From: Marmoricola sp. | GTDB taxonomy: Bacteria; Actinomycetota; Actinomycetes; Propionibacteriales; Nocardioidaceae | Length of the DNA: 39,480 bases | Direction of reading: 5' to 3' | NCBI RefSeq assembly: GCF_025965085.1 | Contig: NZ_JAOPXP010000228.1 | Coordinates: 1 to 39,480 of the forward strand | The notes under the pieces: model-generated | Databases searched by the model: none | What the model saw: only the letters and a program-made list of their open reading frames with translations | Told to the model about the DNA's origin: nothing | Position numbers and translations under genes: made by a program | Shown: piece after piece, positions 1,760 to 30,089 of the stretch | Numbering within the stretch: position 1 is the first letter of the stretch | How the letters are laid out: each line of letters begins with the position of its first letter

Positions 1760-3152
1760 CCCCGGCAGGTGGCGCCGGCTCAACGGGGTGAGACTGCGCA
1801 CGTCGATGGGCGCCACCCTCGTCGTGGCGCTGTTCCTGGCCCTGGCCTCCGTGGTCTTCGTGCTGCTGCAGCGCCAGCAGCTCACCTCCTCCCTCATCGA
1901 CCTGGCGCAGCAGCGCTCGGACGACGTGGCCGGGGAGGTGAGGACCAAGGCCGCCGGCGCCGACCTGGACGGAAATCTGCAGTCCCTGGTCCAGGTCATG
2001 GACGCTCGTGGCGTCGTGGTCGGAGCCAGCTCGACCATCGCAGGTGAGCCCGCGCTGACCGCGCTGCGACCGGCACCGGGGAAGGTCGTCTCCACCACGA
2101 GCAGCCGGCTCCCGGCCGGGGACAGAGGTCCGTATGCGGTGGTGGCCAGGGGCACGTCCAGTCCGAACGGGCCGATGGTGGTGGTCGCGGCGCAGAGCCT
2201 GTCGGCCGTGGAGCGTTCGACCGCGGTGACGGCGGGGCTGCTCGCGGTCGGCTATCCCCTGGTGCTGCTGGCCGTGGCGCTGTCGTCGTACTGGCTGACC
2301 GGGCGCGCCCTGGCGCCGGTGGAGGCGATCCGACGACGGGTCGCCTCGATCGGCGGCACCACGGAGCTCTCGGCGCGGGTGCCGGTGCCGGACACCGCTG
2401 ACGAGATCAGCCGGCTGGCCGAGACCATGAACTCCATGCTCGCGCGCGTACAGAGGGGCGTGCAGGCGCAGCGCAGGTTCATCGGCGACGCGTCGCACGA
2501 GCTGCGCAGCCCCCTGGCGATGATCCGTGCCTCGCACGAGATCGAGGCCATGCACCCCGGTGCCACCGACTGGCCCGTGGTCACCATCGAGATCCTCGCC
2601 GAGCTCGACCGGCTCGACCGCCTGGTCTCGGACATGCTGCTGCTGGCCCGGGCCGACGAGCACGCACTGGTCGTCCACCACGACGAGGTGGATCTCGACG
2701 ACCTCGTCGCGGACGAAGGTGCTCGCCTGCACCGCCTCGGCGTGCGGGACGTGCTGGTCTCGGCACCGCCCACGCGGGTGCTCGGAGATCGCCACCTGCT
2801 CGAGCGTGCCCTGCGCAACATCTGCGACAACGCCGCCCGCCACGCCAGCCGGCGGGTGGAGCTCAGGCTCGGCAGACGAGGCGGGACGGCGACGATCGAC
2901 GTACTCGACGACGGGCCCGGCATCGCTCCCGAGGACGTCGACAGGATCTTCGAGCGGTTCGTCAGGCTCGATCCGAGCCGCACTCGCGACAGTGGCGGGA
3001 CGGGGCTGGGGCTGCCCATCTCCCGGCAGATCGCACGAGCCCACGGCGGCGACCTGGTCGCCAGCGCCGGGGCCGGTGGCGGCCACCTCTCGCTGAGGCT
3101 GCCGATTGCCCGACGAGGCAGCGGAGATGCGCCGCACCTCGTCGTCGCCTAG
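1752..3152 (+). CDS. Sensor histidine kinase (HAMP, HisKA, HATPase)
   Basis: RFIGDASHELRSPL H-box; NICDNAARHA N-box; DDGPGI and GGTGLGLPIS G-boxes; two TM segments; GTG start overlaps the regulator stop. Confidence 0.92.
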   Translation: MADPGRWRRLNGVRLRTSMGATLVVALFLALASVVFVLLQRQQLTSSLIDLAQQRSDDVAGEVRTKAAGADLDGNLQSLVQVMDARGVVVGASSTIAGEPALTALRPAPGKVVSTTSSRLPAGDRGPYAVVARGTSSPNGPMVVVAAQSLSAVERSTAVTAGLLAVGYPLVLLAVALSSYWLTGRALAPVEAIRRRVASIGGTTELSARVPVPDTADEISRLAETMNSMLARVQRGVQAQRRFIGDASHELRSPLAMIRASHEIEAMHPGATDWPVVTIEILAELDRLDRLVSDMLLLARADEHALVVHHDEVDLDDLVADEGARLHRLGVRDVLVSAPPTRVLGDRHLLERALRNICDNAARHASRRVELRLGRRGGTATIDVLDDGPGIAPEDVDRIFERFVRLDPSRTRDSGGTGLGLPISRQIARAHGGDLVASAGAGGGHLSLRLPIARRGSGDAPHLVVA

Positions 3153-3242
3153 GTTCTTCTGGAGATGCCGTCGACGTAGCCGGCTCCGTCCATCAGCCCG
3201 ACGTGTCACGGACCCCGTCCGTGCGACCTCCTGCGAGGCCCC

Positions 3243-5930
3243 ATGTCCGCGCACCTGCCCCCTTCCGCCGAAGCCCCGCTCCGCCGTGACATCCGGATGG
3301 TCACCTCCATGCTGGGCACCACCCTGACCAGGACCCACGGGCAGGACCTGCTCGACCTGGTCGAGAGCGTGCGCACCGCGGCCAAGGACGACGCGCTTTC
3401 CCTGCCTGACCTCGACGTGCACACCGCGACCACGCTGGCGCGGGCGTTCACGGCGTACTTCCATCTCGCCAACGTCACCGAGCAGGAGCACCGGGGCCGG
3501 GCGCTGGAGGAGACGCGTGCCGCCAGTGGAGGGCCGCTCGCCGGCGCCCTCCGCCGGGTCAAGGACCGGGGAATCGGCGCCGAGGACGTGGCCGCAGCGG
3601 TGGCCCACGTCGCCGTCAGGTCGGTCTTCACCGCGCACCCCACCGAGGTCCAGCGGCGTACGACGCTCGACAAGCTCCGCTCCGTGGCCGCCCTGCTCGA
3701 GGAGGAGGACACGCCTCGTCGCCAGAGGCGGCTGGAGGCGGCCGTCGACCTGCTGTGGCAGACCGACGAGCTGCGGATCGACCGGCCGGAGGTGCTCGAC
3801 GAGGCGCGCAACGGCGTCTACTACCTGGAGGGCCTGACCTCCGCGGCCGTCCTCGACGTCCTCGAGGAGCTGGAGGAGCACCTCGCTCCCTGGGGTGTGG
3901 AGCTGCCGCTGACCACCAGCCCGCTGCGCTTCGGCACCTGGATGGGTGGTGACCGCGACGGCAACCCCAACGTGACGCCGGCGATGACCCGCCAGGTCCT
4001 GCAGCTGCAGGCGTCACACGGCATCGCCGGGATCCGCCGCAAGGTCAACGAGCTCAGGCGCACCCTGTCGGTCAGCGAACGGCTCTCGGAGATCTCCGAG
4101 GAACTGCGTTCCAGGACCGCGGGGATGCTCGAGGAGCTGCCCGAGGTCGAGCCGCGCTACAGGCGGCTCAACCAGGAGGAGCCCTACCGGCTGTTCCTGA
4201 CCTGCGTGGACGTCCGGCTCCAGCTCACCGACCGGCGGGTGCAGGACGGCACTCCGCATCGCCCCGGCCGTGACTACCGCGACGACGCCGAGCTGATGGA
4301 CGACGTCCTCCTCCTGCACGACTCCGTGCAGAGGTTCCAGGGCCCGCTCATCGCCGGTGGTGACCTGCGCCGGCTGGTGCGCACGGTCGCGGCCTCGGGA
4401 CTGACGCTGGCCACCCTCGACGTCCGCGAGCACGCGGAGAAGCACCACCACGCCGTGGGCCAGCTCGTCGACCGTCTCGGCACGCTCGACGTGCCCTACG
4501 CCGAGCTCGACCGCGAGTCCCGCCGCAAGCTGCTCAGCCAGGAGCTGACGATCCACCGCCCGCTGTCCCAGCAGCCGCCGCCGATCGACGACGACGGCCG
4601 CAGGACGACCGAGGTCTTCGGAGTGATCCGCGAGTCCCTCGACGCTCTCGGCGAGCGGGCGATCGAGAGCTACATCATCTCGATGACCGAGGACGTCGAC
4701 GACGTGCTCGCGGCCGTCCTGCTGGCACGCGAGGCCGGGCTCGTCGACCTCTCGGCCGGCACCGCCCGCATCGGCTTCGTGCCCCTGCTGGAGACGATCG
4801 AGGAGCTCGAGCGGGTGGAGCCGATCCTCGAGGGGCTGCTCGGCGACCCGTCGTACCGCCAGGTCGTCGCCGCGCGCGGCGACGTCCAGGAGGTCATGCT
4901 CGGCTACTCCGACTCCAACAAGTCGGGTGGCATCGCGACCTCCCAGTGGCAGATCCAGCGTGCGCAGCGCACCGCCCGCGACGTCGCCAGGCGGCACGGC
5001 GTACGGCTCCGGTTCTTCCACGGCCGCGGCGGCTCGGTCGGACGGGGTGGCGGCCCGACGTACGACGCGATCATGGCCCTGCCCTTCGGCACCGTCGACG
5101 GCGAGGTCAAGCTGACCGAGCAGGGCGAGGTGATCAGCGACAAGTACGCCCTGCCGGTGCTCGCCCGCGAGAACCTCGAGCTGCTGGTGGCCGGGACCCT
5201 CGAGGCGAGCCTGCTGCACCGCACGGATCGTCGTACGCCGGAGCAGGCGAAGCGATGGGACGACCTGATGGACCGGGTGTCGCAGCACGCGCACCGCCGC
5301 TACTGCGGCCTGGTCGAGCGGCCCGATCTGCCCGAGTACTTCCTTGCCTGCACCCCGGTCGACCTCCTCGGCTCGCTGCACATCGGCTCGCGACCCTCGC
5401 GCCGGCCGCAGCAGGACGGCGGCCTCGACGGGCTGCGCGCGATCCCCTGGGTCTTCGGCTGGACGCAGTCACGCCAGATCGTCCCGGGATGGTTCGGGGT
5501 GGGGACCGGCCTTGCCGCGGTGGAGGAGCACGGCGGCGACCTGCGTGAGATGTACGAGCAGTGGCCGTTCTTCCGCACCTTCCTCGACAACGTCGCGATG
5601 ACGCTCGCGAAGGCCGACCTCGACATCGCCGAGCGCTACGTGACGGCGTTGGCTCCCGAGCACACCCACGGCATCCTGGACATCGTGCGCGAGGAGTTCG
5701 ACCTGACCGTGGCGCAGGTGCTGCTGGTCACCGGCGACGCCCAGCTGCTCGACCGCGAGCCAGTGCTGCGCACCACCCTCGAGGTGCGGGAGAACTACCT
5801 CGAGCCGCTGCACCTCCTCCAGGTGCAGCTGCTCGCCCGTCGTCGTGCGGGCGAGGAGGACCCCGAGCTGGAGCGGGCGCTGCTGCTGACCATCAACGGC
5901 ATCGCTGCGGGGATGCGCAACACGGGCTGA
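3243..5930 (+). CDS. ppc: Phosphoenolpyruvate carboxylase
   Basis: FTAHPTEVQRRTTLDK, GGDRDGNPNVTP, LGYSDSNKSGGIATSQW, FFHGRGGSVGRGGGP, C-terminal NGIAAGMRNTG. Confidence 0.97.
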   Translation: MSAHLPPSAEAPLRRDIRMVTSMLGTTLTRTHGQDLLDLVESVRTAAKDDALSLPDLDVHTATTLARAFTAYFHLANVTEQEHRGRALEETRAASGGPLAGALRRVKDRGIGAEDVAAAVAHVAVRSVFTAHPTEVQRRTTLDKLRSVAALLEEEDTPRRQRRLEAAVDLLWQTDELRIDRPEVLDEARNGVYYLEGLTSAAVLDVLEELEEHLAPWGVELPLTTSPLRFGTWMGGDRDGNPNVTPAMTRQVLQLQASHGIAGIRRKVNELRRTLSVSERLSEISEELRSRTAGMLEELPEVEPRYRRLNQEEPYRLFLTCVDVRLQLTDRRVQDGTPHRPGRDYRDDAELMDDVLLLHDSVQRFQGPLIAGGDLRRLVRTVAASGLTLATLDVREHAEKHHHAVGQLVDRLGTLDVPYAELDRESRRKLLSQELTIHRPLSQQPPPIDDDGRRTTEVFGVIRESLDALGERAIESYIISMTEDVDDVLAAVLLAREAGLVDLSAGTARIGFVPLLETIEELERVEPILEGLLGDPSYRQVVAARGDVQEVMLGYSDSNKSGGIATSQWQIQRAQRTARDVARRHGVRLRFFHGRGGSVGRGGGPTYDAIMALPFGTVDGEVKLTEQGEVISDKYALPVLARENLELLVAGTLEASLLHRTDRRTPEQAKRWDDLMDRVSQHAHRRYCGLVERPDLPEYFLACTPVDLLGSLHIGSRPSRRPQQDGGLDGLRAIPWVFGWTQSRQIVPGWFGVGTGLAAVEEHGGDLREMYEQWPFFRTFLDNVAMTLAKADLDIAERYVTALAPEHTHGILDIVREEFDLTVAQVLLVTGDAQLLDREPVLRTTLEVRENYLEPLHLLQVQLLARRRAGEEDPELERALLLTINGIAAGMRNTG

Positions 5931-28585: not shown

Positions 28586-28618
28586 CCGGCCGCCCACACG
28601 CAGGCGCCCGACTGTTCC

Positions 28619-28647
28619 AGGACCCGCACCCTCAGGGTGCGGGTCCT
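28619..28647 (+). terminator. Hairpin terminator after pckG
   Basis: Perfect 13-bp stem AGGACCCGCACCC-TCA-GGGTGCGGGTCCT. Confidence 0.75.
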
Positions 28648-28672
28648 GCGGTTTCTCGACATGATGCACGGC

Positions 28673-29671
28673 ATGAGCATCGAGGGGGGATCGGAGCGGC
28701 GTGCACTCCTGGCCGGCCCGGCCGGTGAGCTCTACCGCGAGATCATCGCGGCAGGAGCCCTGGCGGGCGACGACCCGCGGTTCGGGCAGGACCATCCGTC
28801 GTTCCCGTTGCTGGCGATGCTCATCGACCTCGGGCTGGTCCGTGAGGACGACCGCGCAGGCGCCTGGGTAGCGGTGGACCCGGCGGCCGTCCAGGCAGGA
28901 GTCGTGGCGCCGATGGGCCGCCGGGTCGTGGAGCTGCTGGACGAGTCCGCCGCGTGGGCAGACACGTTCGGCTCCCTGTCCCAGACCTTCAGGCGTACGC
29001 CGGTCGGTGACAGCCCGATCAACGAGATCAGGGGCCTGTCCAGCATCAATCACTTCCTCGAGGCAGCGGTCGACGACGCGGAGCACGAGCTGCTCACCGC
29101 ACAGCCGGCCGGAGCCCGTCGCGCGGTCATCCTTGAGCAGGCGGTGGACCGCGACCTGCGCGCGCTCGAGCGGGGCGTGGCGATGCGCACGCTCTACCAG
29201 CACACGGCCCGCCGCAGCCGGGCGACGCGGGACCATGTCGAGCGCATCCTCGAGCGGGGCGCGAAGGTGCGCACACTCGATGAGTTCTTCAACCGGCTCA
29301 TCGTGGTCGACCGCCGACTGGCCGTGATCCCCGGAGGATCACCCGACGTGGCGCTCGCGATCCACGACCTGAGCCTCGTGTCCTACCTCGCGGACATCTT
29401 CGACCGCTCGTGGGAACGGGCCAGGGAGTACGACGAGCGCGGGGGCTCCTCCGAGAGCGACATCGCGGCCGACATGCGCCAGCTGACGGTGCGCATGCTC
29501 ACAGAGGGCCACAGCGACCCCGCCAGCGCCAAGCGCGTCGGAGTGAGCACCCGCACCTACGCCTCCTACGTCGCCGCCCTCAAGGACGAGTACGGCGTGG
29601 AGACCCGGTTCCAGCTCGGCTACGCCATGGGGAGCAGGGACCCTGAGTCAGCCCCCGAGAGAGCCGACTGA
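28673..29671 (+). CDS. TrmB-like / LuxR-type helix-turn-helix transcriptional regulator
   Basis: N-terminal winged-helix-like region; central TrmB/PLD-like segment EIRGLSSINHFLEAAVDDAEHELLTAQPAG...FFNRLIVVDRRLAVIPGG; C-terminal LuxR-like HTH LTVRMLTEGHSDPASAKRVGVSTRTYASYVAALKDEYG. Confidence 0.75.
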   Translation: MSIEGGSERRALLAGPAGELYREIIAAGALAGDDPRFGQDHPSFPLLAMLIDLGLVREDDRAGAWVAVDPAAVQAGVVAPMGRRVVELLDESAAWADTFGSLSQTFRRTPVGDSPINEIRGLSSINHFLEAAVDDAEHELLTAQPAGARRAVILEQAVDRDLRALERGVAMRTLYQHTARRSRATRDHVERILERGAKVRTLDEFFNRLIVVDRRLAVIPGGSPDVALAIHDLSLVSYLADIFDRSWERAREYDERGGSSESDIAADMRQLTVRMLTEGHSDPASAKRVGVSTRTYASYVAALKDEYGVETRFQLGYAMGSRDPESAPERAD

Positions 29672-29698
29672 CTCCGGGTCACTGCTGCCCCGATCGGC

Positions 29699-29839
29699 CT
29701 ACTTGAAGCCCCAGCCGGTGTCGTACGTCGTGTGGGTGGGCCGGGTTGCCGCGTCGGCGGGACCGGCGACACCGACGGTCACGAGACCGACGGTGAGCAG
29801 GACGGTGGCGACGGGCTTGAGGACATTGCGGAGATTCAT
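29699..29839 (-). CDS. Small secreted peptide (46 aa), putative signalling peptide
   Basis: MNLRNVLKPVATVLLTVGLVTVGVAGPADAATRPTHTTYDTGWGFK; classical signal peptide with ADA^A site; RBS AGAAGGA upstream. Confidence 0.75.
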   Translation of the reverse strand: MNLRNVLKPVATVLLTVGLVTVGVAGPADAATRPTHTTYDTGWGFK

Positions 29840-29926
29840 GGAGGAATCCTTCTCGTCTCGGGGCAACGCCCATCGTGCCCGCGGTGTCGCCTCACGTGAC
29901 AGGAGGACAACCCACATGAGTGTGCA

Positions 29927-29942
29927 TTGCATCTTCATGCAA
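29927..29942. promoter_or_regulatory. Inverted repeat upstream of the small peptide gene (candidate operator)
   Basis: TTGCAT-CTTC-ATGCAA, perfect 6-bp arms, about 90 nt upstream of peptide start in a locally AT-richer stretch. Confidence 0.45.
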
Positions 29943-29959
29943 GTTGTGGGCGTGCACAG

Positions 29960-29992
29960 AACCACCCCGGACCCTCAGGGTCCGGGGTGGTT
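29960..29992. terminator. Strong hairpin (likely terminator) between tRNA-Ser and peptide gene
   Basis: Perfect 15-bp stem AACCACCCCGGACCC-TCA-GGGTCCGGGGTGGTT just 3' of tRNA-Ser on the minus strand. Confidence 0.7.
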
Positions 29993-29999
29993 CAGCCTG

Positions 30000-30089
30000 C
30001 GGAGGTGGCGGGATTTGAACCCGCGAGAGGGCACAACCCTCAACCCGCTTAGCAGGCGGGCGCCATAAACCGGGCTAGGCGACACCTCC
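30000..30089 (-). tRNA. tRNA-Ser(GCT)
   Basis: Minus strand GGAGGTGTCGCCTAGCCCGGTTTATGGCGCCCGCCTGCTAAGCGGGTT...GCGGGTTCAAATCCCGCCACCTCC with long variable arm. Confidence 0.95.

Follow-up and report, generated by a model that had tools for sequence, protein, structure and literature searches.

A secreted-peptide gene convergent to a TrmB/PLD-like regulator in Marmoricola sp.: in silico evidence for a putative peptide-signalling system

Locus, regulator and peptide gene

The window, i.e. the whole stretch of DNA analysed here (39,480 nucleotides of a Marmoricola sp. contig), harbors in this order pckG, a hairpin, a regulator gene, a gap of 27 nt, a convergent 46-aa ORF, a promoter region, a second hairpin, and tRNA-Ser. 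The evidence presented is in silico throughout; binding, import, the mature length of the peptide, and the sign of regulation are inferred. The following features were defined, with their basis given in brackets.

28616..28650, no strand assigned: strong GC hairpin in the pckG-regulator interval, likely a terminator (z -3.6)
28673..29671, plus strand: regulator CDS of 332 aa, putative peptide receptor and transcription factor (ORF, AlphaFold model, Foldseek)
29018..29419, plus strand: PLD-like ligand domain, aa 116-249, inferred to bind the peptide (fold; covariation with the motif)
29090..29092, plus strand: Leu140 codon (covaries with motif position 2)
29153..29155, plus strand: Asp161 codon (best single covarying column of the protein)
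29450..29635, plus strand: C-terminal HTH, aa 260-321, inferred to bind the operator (weak HTH_23 match, model helices, relatives)
29699..29839, minus strand: secreted peptide precursor gene, 46 aa, convergent to the regulator (ORF, homologue linkage, pN/pS)
29708..29722, minus strand: conserved core DTGWG, aa 40-44, predicted pheromone (motif conservation in Nocardioidaceae peptides)
29750..29839, minus strand: predicted signal peptide, aa 1-30, ending in ADA (AxA site, crude rule)
29847..29851, minus strand: ribosome-binding site (RBS) AAGGA of the peptide gene (sequence, RBS test)
29872..29877, minus strand: -10-like element CACGAT, following the operator at a distance of about 38 nt (promoter alignment)
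29915..29941, minus strand: putative operator TGCATGAAGATGCAATGCACACTCATG, a near-palindrome of the form TGCA-N6-TGCA-N-TGCA-N6-TG (conservation; inferred, no binding data)
29959..29994, no strand assigned: strong GC hairpin between tRNA-Ser and the peptide promoter (z -5.6)
29999-30089, minus strand: tRNA-Ser

Since strong hairpins flank it on both the pckG and the tRNA-Ser side, the cassette is likely to be transcriptionally insulated, which is inferred from sequence alone.

In the AF2 model (pLDDT 83, pTM 0.52), the regulator is built from an N-terminal winged-helix region, a long helix, a TrmB/PLD-like domain, and a C-terminal HTH, with the orientation of the domains being uncertain because of the pTM of 0.52. 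The top Foldseek matches of this model are TrmBL2 (5bpd, 8.9e-14), TrmB (3qph, 6.9e-9), and the PLD-family protein Nuc (1byr, 1.6e-7), and a profile built from 27 regulator homologues matched archaeal TrmBL2 at 1.8e-6. No Pfam or NCBIfam model lies above cut-off for the window regulator, TrmB-related models staying below their curated cut-offs, and the TPR family was not found in Pfam scans of the regulator. Its C-terminal HTH gives only a sub-threshold match to HTH_23 and does not reach the GerE cut-off; one distant relative (L133) passes the latter, and the C-terminal HTH is GerE/LuxR-like in relatives.

The product of the peptide gene is MNLRNVLKPVATVLLTVGLVTVGVAGPADA^ATRPTHTTYDTGWGFK, where ^ marks the predicted cut after a basic-hydrophobic-AxA signal peptide. 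Signal peptides were called by a crude rule and not by a dedicated signal-peptide program. The ORF starts with an ATG at 29839 and ends with a stop codon at 29699-29701 (minus strand), 27 nt past the regulator stop. Orthologous peptide ORFs show a pN/pS of 0.24 (ten pairs), and thus the reading frame is under protein-level selection. The 46-aa ORF is shown in silico to be a real and conserved secreted-peptide gene, with secretion as such predicted by rule.

A preliminary description of this locus had proposed a 46-aa minus-strand ORF with an RBS 27 nt from the regulator end, which held, and a textbook signal peptide with an AXA site, which held by the crude rule. The proposed TrmB/PLD-like centre and C-terminal HTH of the regulator held at the level of the fold, while the LuxR/GerE family cut-off was not met. 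Absence of translation of the ORF, which would have refuted the proposal, is countered in silico by the coding selection seen.

Linkage, motif and operator in relatives

Regulator homologues were taken from genomes of Nocardioides, Marmoricola, and other groups, and a linked peptide was called by the presence of an RBS, a signal peptide, and [DE]xxW in the mature part, at no more than 900 nt from the regulator. A peptide ORF adjoins 99 of 107 Nocardioidaceae regulators and is always convergent; other placements around the same 107 regulators gave two detector hits. For the genus group g25, which we take to be Streptomyces because relatives of this type on plasmids and in phages carry Streptomyces names, 48 of 101 regulators have a linked peptide, always in divergent orientation. 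Here, nearly all genomes examined have a peptide beside their lead regulator, and many of the unlinked regulators are tandem paralogues. Phage or plasmid relatives have a linked peptide in six of eight cases. Some loci are present in both collections; the non-redundant sets comprise 78 + 46 + 6 peptides, the 78 being those of the Nocardioidaceae. Linkage is thereby shown in silico. With the same detector, none of 57 relatives in the families f21 and f19 has a linked [DE]xxW peptide. As about half of the g25 and all scanned f21/f19 relatives are without a peptide, the regulator fold can serve other ligands.

Several arrangements were recorded as side observations. Up to eight regulator relatives occur per f21 genome, no DxxW peptide being found beside the f21/f19 relatives (L181-L239). 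In three g25 loci (L130, L131, L132), a single precursor is shared by a cluster of two to five paralogous regulators in tandem or facing orientation. Short leaderless ORFs divergent from the regulator end in DAGWD (L133, upstream of 2475-3449) or DSAWG (L119, upstream of 1486-2421) and might represent leaderless signals.

The motif reads D (or E) at the first position, mostly S/T/P/V/I/L/Y at the second, G/S/T/V/A at the third, W at the fourth, and mostly G/T/D/S/P/V/E at the fifth. Only D/E and W were demanded by the detector, all other positions being free. Accordingly, the 99 motif copies in the 78 Nocardioidaceae peptides all contain the D and W required by the search; position 2 is mostly T/S and position 3 S/G/T/A, both unconstrained by it. 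The precursors have lengths of 39-133 aa (with rule-based signal peptides), and 58 of them contain two or more motif copies (range 2-10), such as L130 with ten times DSTW or L128 with seven times DVGW. A single tetrapeptide is common to all copies in 57 of these 58 precursors, and its letters vary between loci. Identity within precursors at positions 2, 3, and 5 amounts to 0.95 compared to 0.25 after shuffling, and none of 5000 shuffles reached 0.95. Between copies, 27% of codons differ synonymously and the flanking residues are just 29-39% identical, and therefore the motif is maintained by selection. Recent duplication alone was rejected as the source of the tandem repeats because of these synonymous differences and the diverged spacers. 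Conservation of the motif is shown in silico; from repeats and conservation it is inferred that the signal is likely a D-x-x-W-x core of roughly five residues, often repeated in the precursor. In some Nocardioides peptides (L045, L048, L099, L103, L109), the motif is followed by a Cys-containing tail (such as DSSWGCGGxCR), which could hint at a disulfide or another modification.

The pattern TGCA-N6-TGCA-N-TGCA-N6-TG was found upstream of convergent peptide genes in 61 of 86 loci. When up to one mismatch was allowed, the 3.55-Mb genome had no match other than the window site (two matches for the reversed control). Across 101 genomes of the family, the operator is present in 36 of 48 genomes with the regulator and in 3 of 53 without it (p 1e-13). 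Conservation and uniqueness of the operator are shown in silico. In 59 aligned peptide-gene promoters, an element [GC]A[CG][AG][AC]T occurs at near-constant spacing from the operator, and a -35 consensus was not seen. The divergent intergenic region of g25 contains TGCAGGAACATGATGCA, a site that 19 of 41 genomes have just once (none in the control) and that has the half-site TGCAGGAAC-TG in common with the Nocardioidaceae operators. From the position of the site we infer that the regulator most likely activates the peptide gene.

Second operator sites were found in relatives in front of genes for secreted proteases of the types M4 (L335, L336), M6 (L347, L356, L357), S8 (L354), M36 (L363), and M10/M12-like (L351). 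Others precede genes for an NlpC/P60 protein (L367), a secreted nuclease-like protein (L355), and further DxxW peptides (L353, L358). About 31 loci with operator sites were inspected with a crude gene finder, the first batch being preselected for signal peptides, and for several of these loci a clear target is lacking. In the window genome no second operator target was found, the only predicted one being the peptide gene itself. Density-controlled protease secretion is the reading of the regulon that we prefer for the family, and it is inferred from the site positions in some relatives. As separate observations, operator-like sites without an evident promoter target recur close to proS and to genes for a DUF4439 lipoprotein and a HAD hydrolase (L333, L339, L341, L348, L349, L366), and a perfect operator-like palindrome is located about 200 nt upstream of ligA, encoding NAD-dependent DNA ligase, in two genomes (L345, L352).

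Covariation of regulator and motif, and mobile copies

The relation between regulator and motif was analysed in 158 non-redundant regulator-peptide pairs (74 divergent, 84 convergent). With the other two domains removed, distances in the PLD-like domain track motif distances in both sets (partial Mantel r 0.377 for the divergent and 0.348 for the convergent one, p 0.0005 in each). No such motif-tracking signal was detected for the N-terminal and HTH domains of the same pairs. With Ser/Thr as the second motif residue, residue 161 is acidic (Asp/Glu) in 125 of 125 pairs; with other motifs, this holds for 6 of 33. Concerning residue 140, Ser at motif position 2 goes along with Met (37/43) and Thr with Leu/Val (78/82). 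On a tree built without the tested columns, 5.2 of 7 independent pairs change in the same direction for residue 161 (sign test p 0.03-0.06) and 6.9 of 10 for residue 140 (p 0.008-0.03), with none in the opposite direction in either case. The small number of such tree-independent pairs (p 0.008-0.06) has to be kept in mind. The covariation as such is domain-specific, which is shown in silico; a simple chemical reading would be hydrogen bonding between Asp161 and the Ser/Thr hydroxyl. The PLD-like domain is thus likely to be the peptide receptor, a conclusion resting on covariation only, without binding data.

With these results, the preliminary view that the peptide resembles a pheromone or signalling peptide is supported in silico, and the idea that the adjacent regulator senses it gains support from covariation seen in the PLD-like domain only, with binding and import remaining inferred. 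Both further observations named as refuting it failed to appear: homologous regulators do have linked small secreted ORFs, and the C-terminal D-x-x-W motif is conserved. The mature product of about 16 residues had to be corrected, the conserved unit being D-x-x-W-x (DTGWG) and not the whole 16-residue tail.

The pair is also found on mobile elements. In Streptomyces phage Chymera (KU958700.1; L142 1961-3983, gp28-gp31), the regulator gp29 is divergent from the peptide gene gp30, whose precursor contains two DPGWG copies, and the two genes are flanked by integrase/immunity repressor genes and another HTH gene. A search with the Chymera protein revealed that the pair is kept in three IMG/VR prophages (L147-L149; regulator identity 68-100%), and an inverted repeat around GCATACGC/GGCGTATGCC is conserved in the intergenic region of phage and prophages. 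The viral search using alignment A2 gave no match, and PHROGs holds no family for the phage regulator-peptide pair. The phage pair fits the covariation at residues 140 and 161 as well. Separately, the Chymera regulator itself was seen to contain a DSGW stretch (VDSGWHI). Among Streptomyces plasmids, one pair lies beside an NRPS/MbtH cluster and has three DTGWG in its precursor, and another with the motif DSAWG lies beside beta-methylarginine biosynthesis genes (pair positions L145 2364-3843 and L144 2869-4590). The regulator and peptide genes are the only genes that the phage and plasmid units have in common. Judged by position only, the plasmid pairs may be pathway switches, and use of the mobile copies by phages and biosynthetic clusters is conceivable, their function on phages being inferred.

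Interpretation and comparison with known systems

Taken together, the regulator and the peptide gene very likely form a two-gene autoinducing peptide-signalling system with the regulator as cytoplasmic receptor (probability roughly 0.85, in silico only). In the proposed mechanism, the 46-aa precursor would be exported by Sec and, as predicted, cleaved after ADA. Extracellular trimming, inferred from repeats and conservation, would yield the short D-x-x-W-x core (DTGWG in the window), and an oligopeptide ABC transporter would re-import it, which is inferred as well (the window genome encodes three SBP_bac_5 proteins). The core would then bind the PLD-like domain, where residues 140 and 161 may read motif position 2, as supported by covariation. 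Finally, the regulator would act at the peptide-gene operator, most likely as an activator, which would make the loop positive; in relatives, secreted-protease genes would be additional targets. Both are inferred from the conservation and position of the sites.

The alternative surviving best, albeit unlikely, is that the peptide is an output: the regulator would sense another molecule and, through the operator, induce a small secreted peptide with bioactivity of an antimicrobial or RiPP-like type. An operator in the peptide promoter and a secreted, repeat-bearing precursor are compatible with this, and one repeat precursor weakly resembles the thiovarsolin RiPP model (E 1.3e-4, below cut-off). 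However, it is the regulator's ligand domain, and neither of the DNA-binding domains, that varies with the motif letters, a relation for which an output gene has no need; the motif is constant within a precursor yet variable between loci, and no peptide-modification enzymes are present in the annotated neighbourhoods of the pairs. A RiPP precursor was rejected, the sub-threshold thiovarsolin match looking like low complexity and maturation genes not being annotated beside the pairs. Slightly less probable still is a peptide signal whose receptor is not the linked regulator but a different one, perhaps extracellular, the regulator just controlling expression of the peptide. Linkage and operator alone would allow for this, and direct binding data are absent; against it, PLD residues 140 and 161 covary with the motif in two bacterial groups and the phage pair, and phage and plasmid units share nothing beyond the two genes. 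A chance ORF in the 3′ flank of the regulator, as spurious ORFs are abundant in high-GC genomes, is all but ruled out and was rejected in silico by the pN/pS of 0.24, the recurrence in one placement (99/107), the conserved operator, and the -10-like element.

A bolder version of the signalling reading, which we consider likely, is a class of linear-peptide quorum sensing that arose independently of RRNPP, with [DE]xxW pheromones that are often multi-copy, a TrmB/PLD-fold receptor, and a specificity code that can be read at residues 140 and 161. Such a class would be widespread among Streptomyces and Nocardioidaceae, and plasmids, biosynthetic clusters, and temperate actinophages would have taken it up as an arbitrium-like switch. 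If true, the predicted peptide sequences, receptor, and operator make the family testable with cheap synthetic pentapeptides, and for the pairs beside NRPS and beta-methylarginine genes the right peptide might turn on silent clusters. It would also become testable whether actinomycetes use signals like the peptide that BldK is presumed to take up, and whether actinophages communicate by peptides.

Genetically encoded peptide pheromones with cytoplasmic receptors have been described mainly from Firmicutes, and the signals described for actinobacteria are mainly small molecules, gamma-butyrolactones among them (PMC10075063, PMC4748050). Neither TrmB nor phospholipase-type domains are mentioned in a survey of LuxR proteins from actinobacteria (PMC3466318). 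No description of a DxxW peptide/TrmB-like regulator family was found in the open-access literature searched, preprints and most subscription journals being outside its scope, and a prior description elsewhere is the main risk to novelty. For the BldK system of Streptomyces coelicolor, an imported extracellular oligopeptide signal of 655 Da is presumed (cited in PMC9640686); it indicates that peptide signals of this type are to be expected, with no link to the DxxW system shown.

Archaeal TrmB and TrmBL2 share the N-terminal winged helix followed by a PLD-like effector domain, but the window regulator adds a C-terminal LuxR-like HTH and its ligand is, by inference, a peptide. Known TrmB ligands are sugars. 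To our knowledge, TrmB/TrmBL2 regulators have no peptide gene as partner, and no peptide-receptor family has a TrmB/PLD-like fold. The arbitrium system of Bacillus phages (AimR-AimP) is resembled by the phage-borne pair beside integrase and immunity repressor in Chymera and the prophages, whereas the Chymera receptor is unrelated, its precursor has two DPGWG copies, and a role in lysis-lysogeny is inferred by layout only. The closest parallels are those to the RRNPP(A) systems of Firmicutes (Rap, Rgg, NprR, PlcR, PrgX, AimR), two of which, NprR and PlcR, control secreted proteases. The criteria in PMC10075063 of a small propeptide with a Sec signal (rule-based here) beside a regulator of 250-500 aa (332 aa here) are met, some propeptides contain tandem pheromone copies as in Phr3T (PMC11343458), and the pheromone is short and linear (predicted here) and also found on phages and plasmids. 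In contrast, RRNPP receptors bind via TPR, and the regulator described here consists of wHTH, PLD-like domain, and HTH without a TPR found, comes from Actinomycetota, and is paired with a [DE]xxW motif in convergent or divergent gene order. As the receptor fold is unrelated and the TPR criterion is unmet, the system is not an RRNPP member; it is unlike known peptide-receptor families in its fold and RRNPP-like in its logic.
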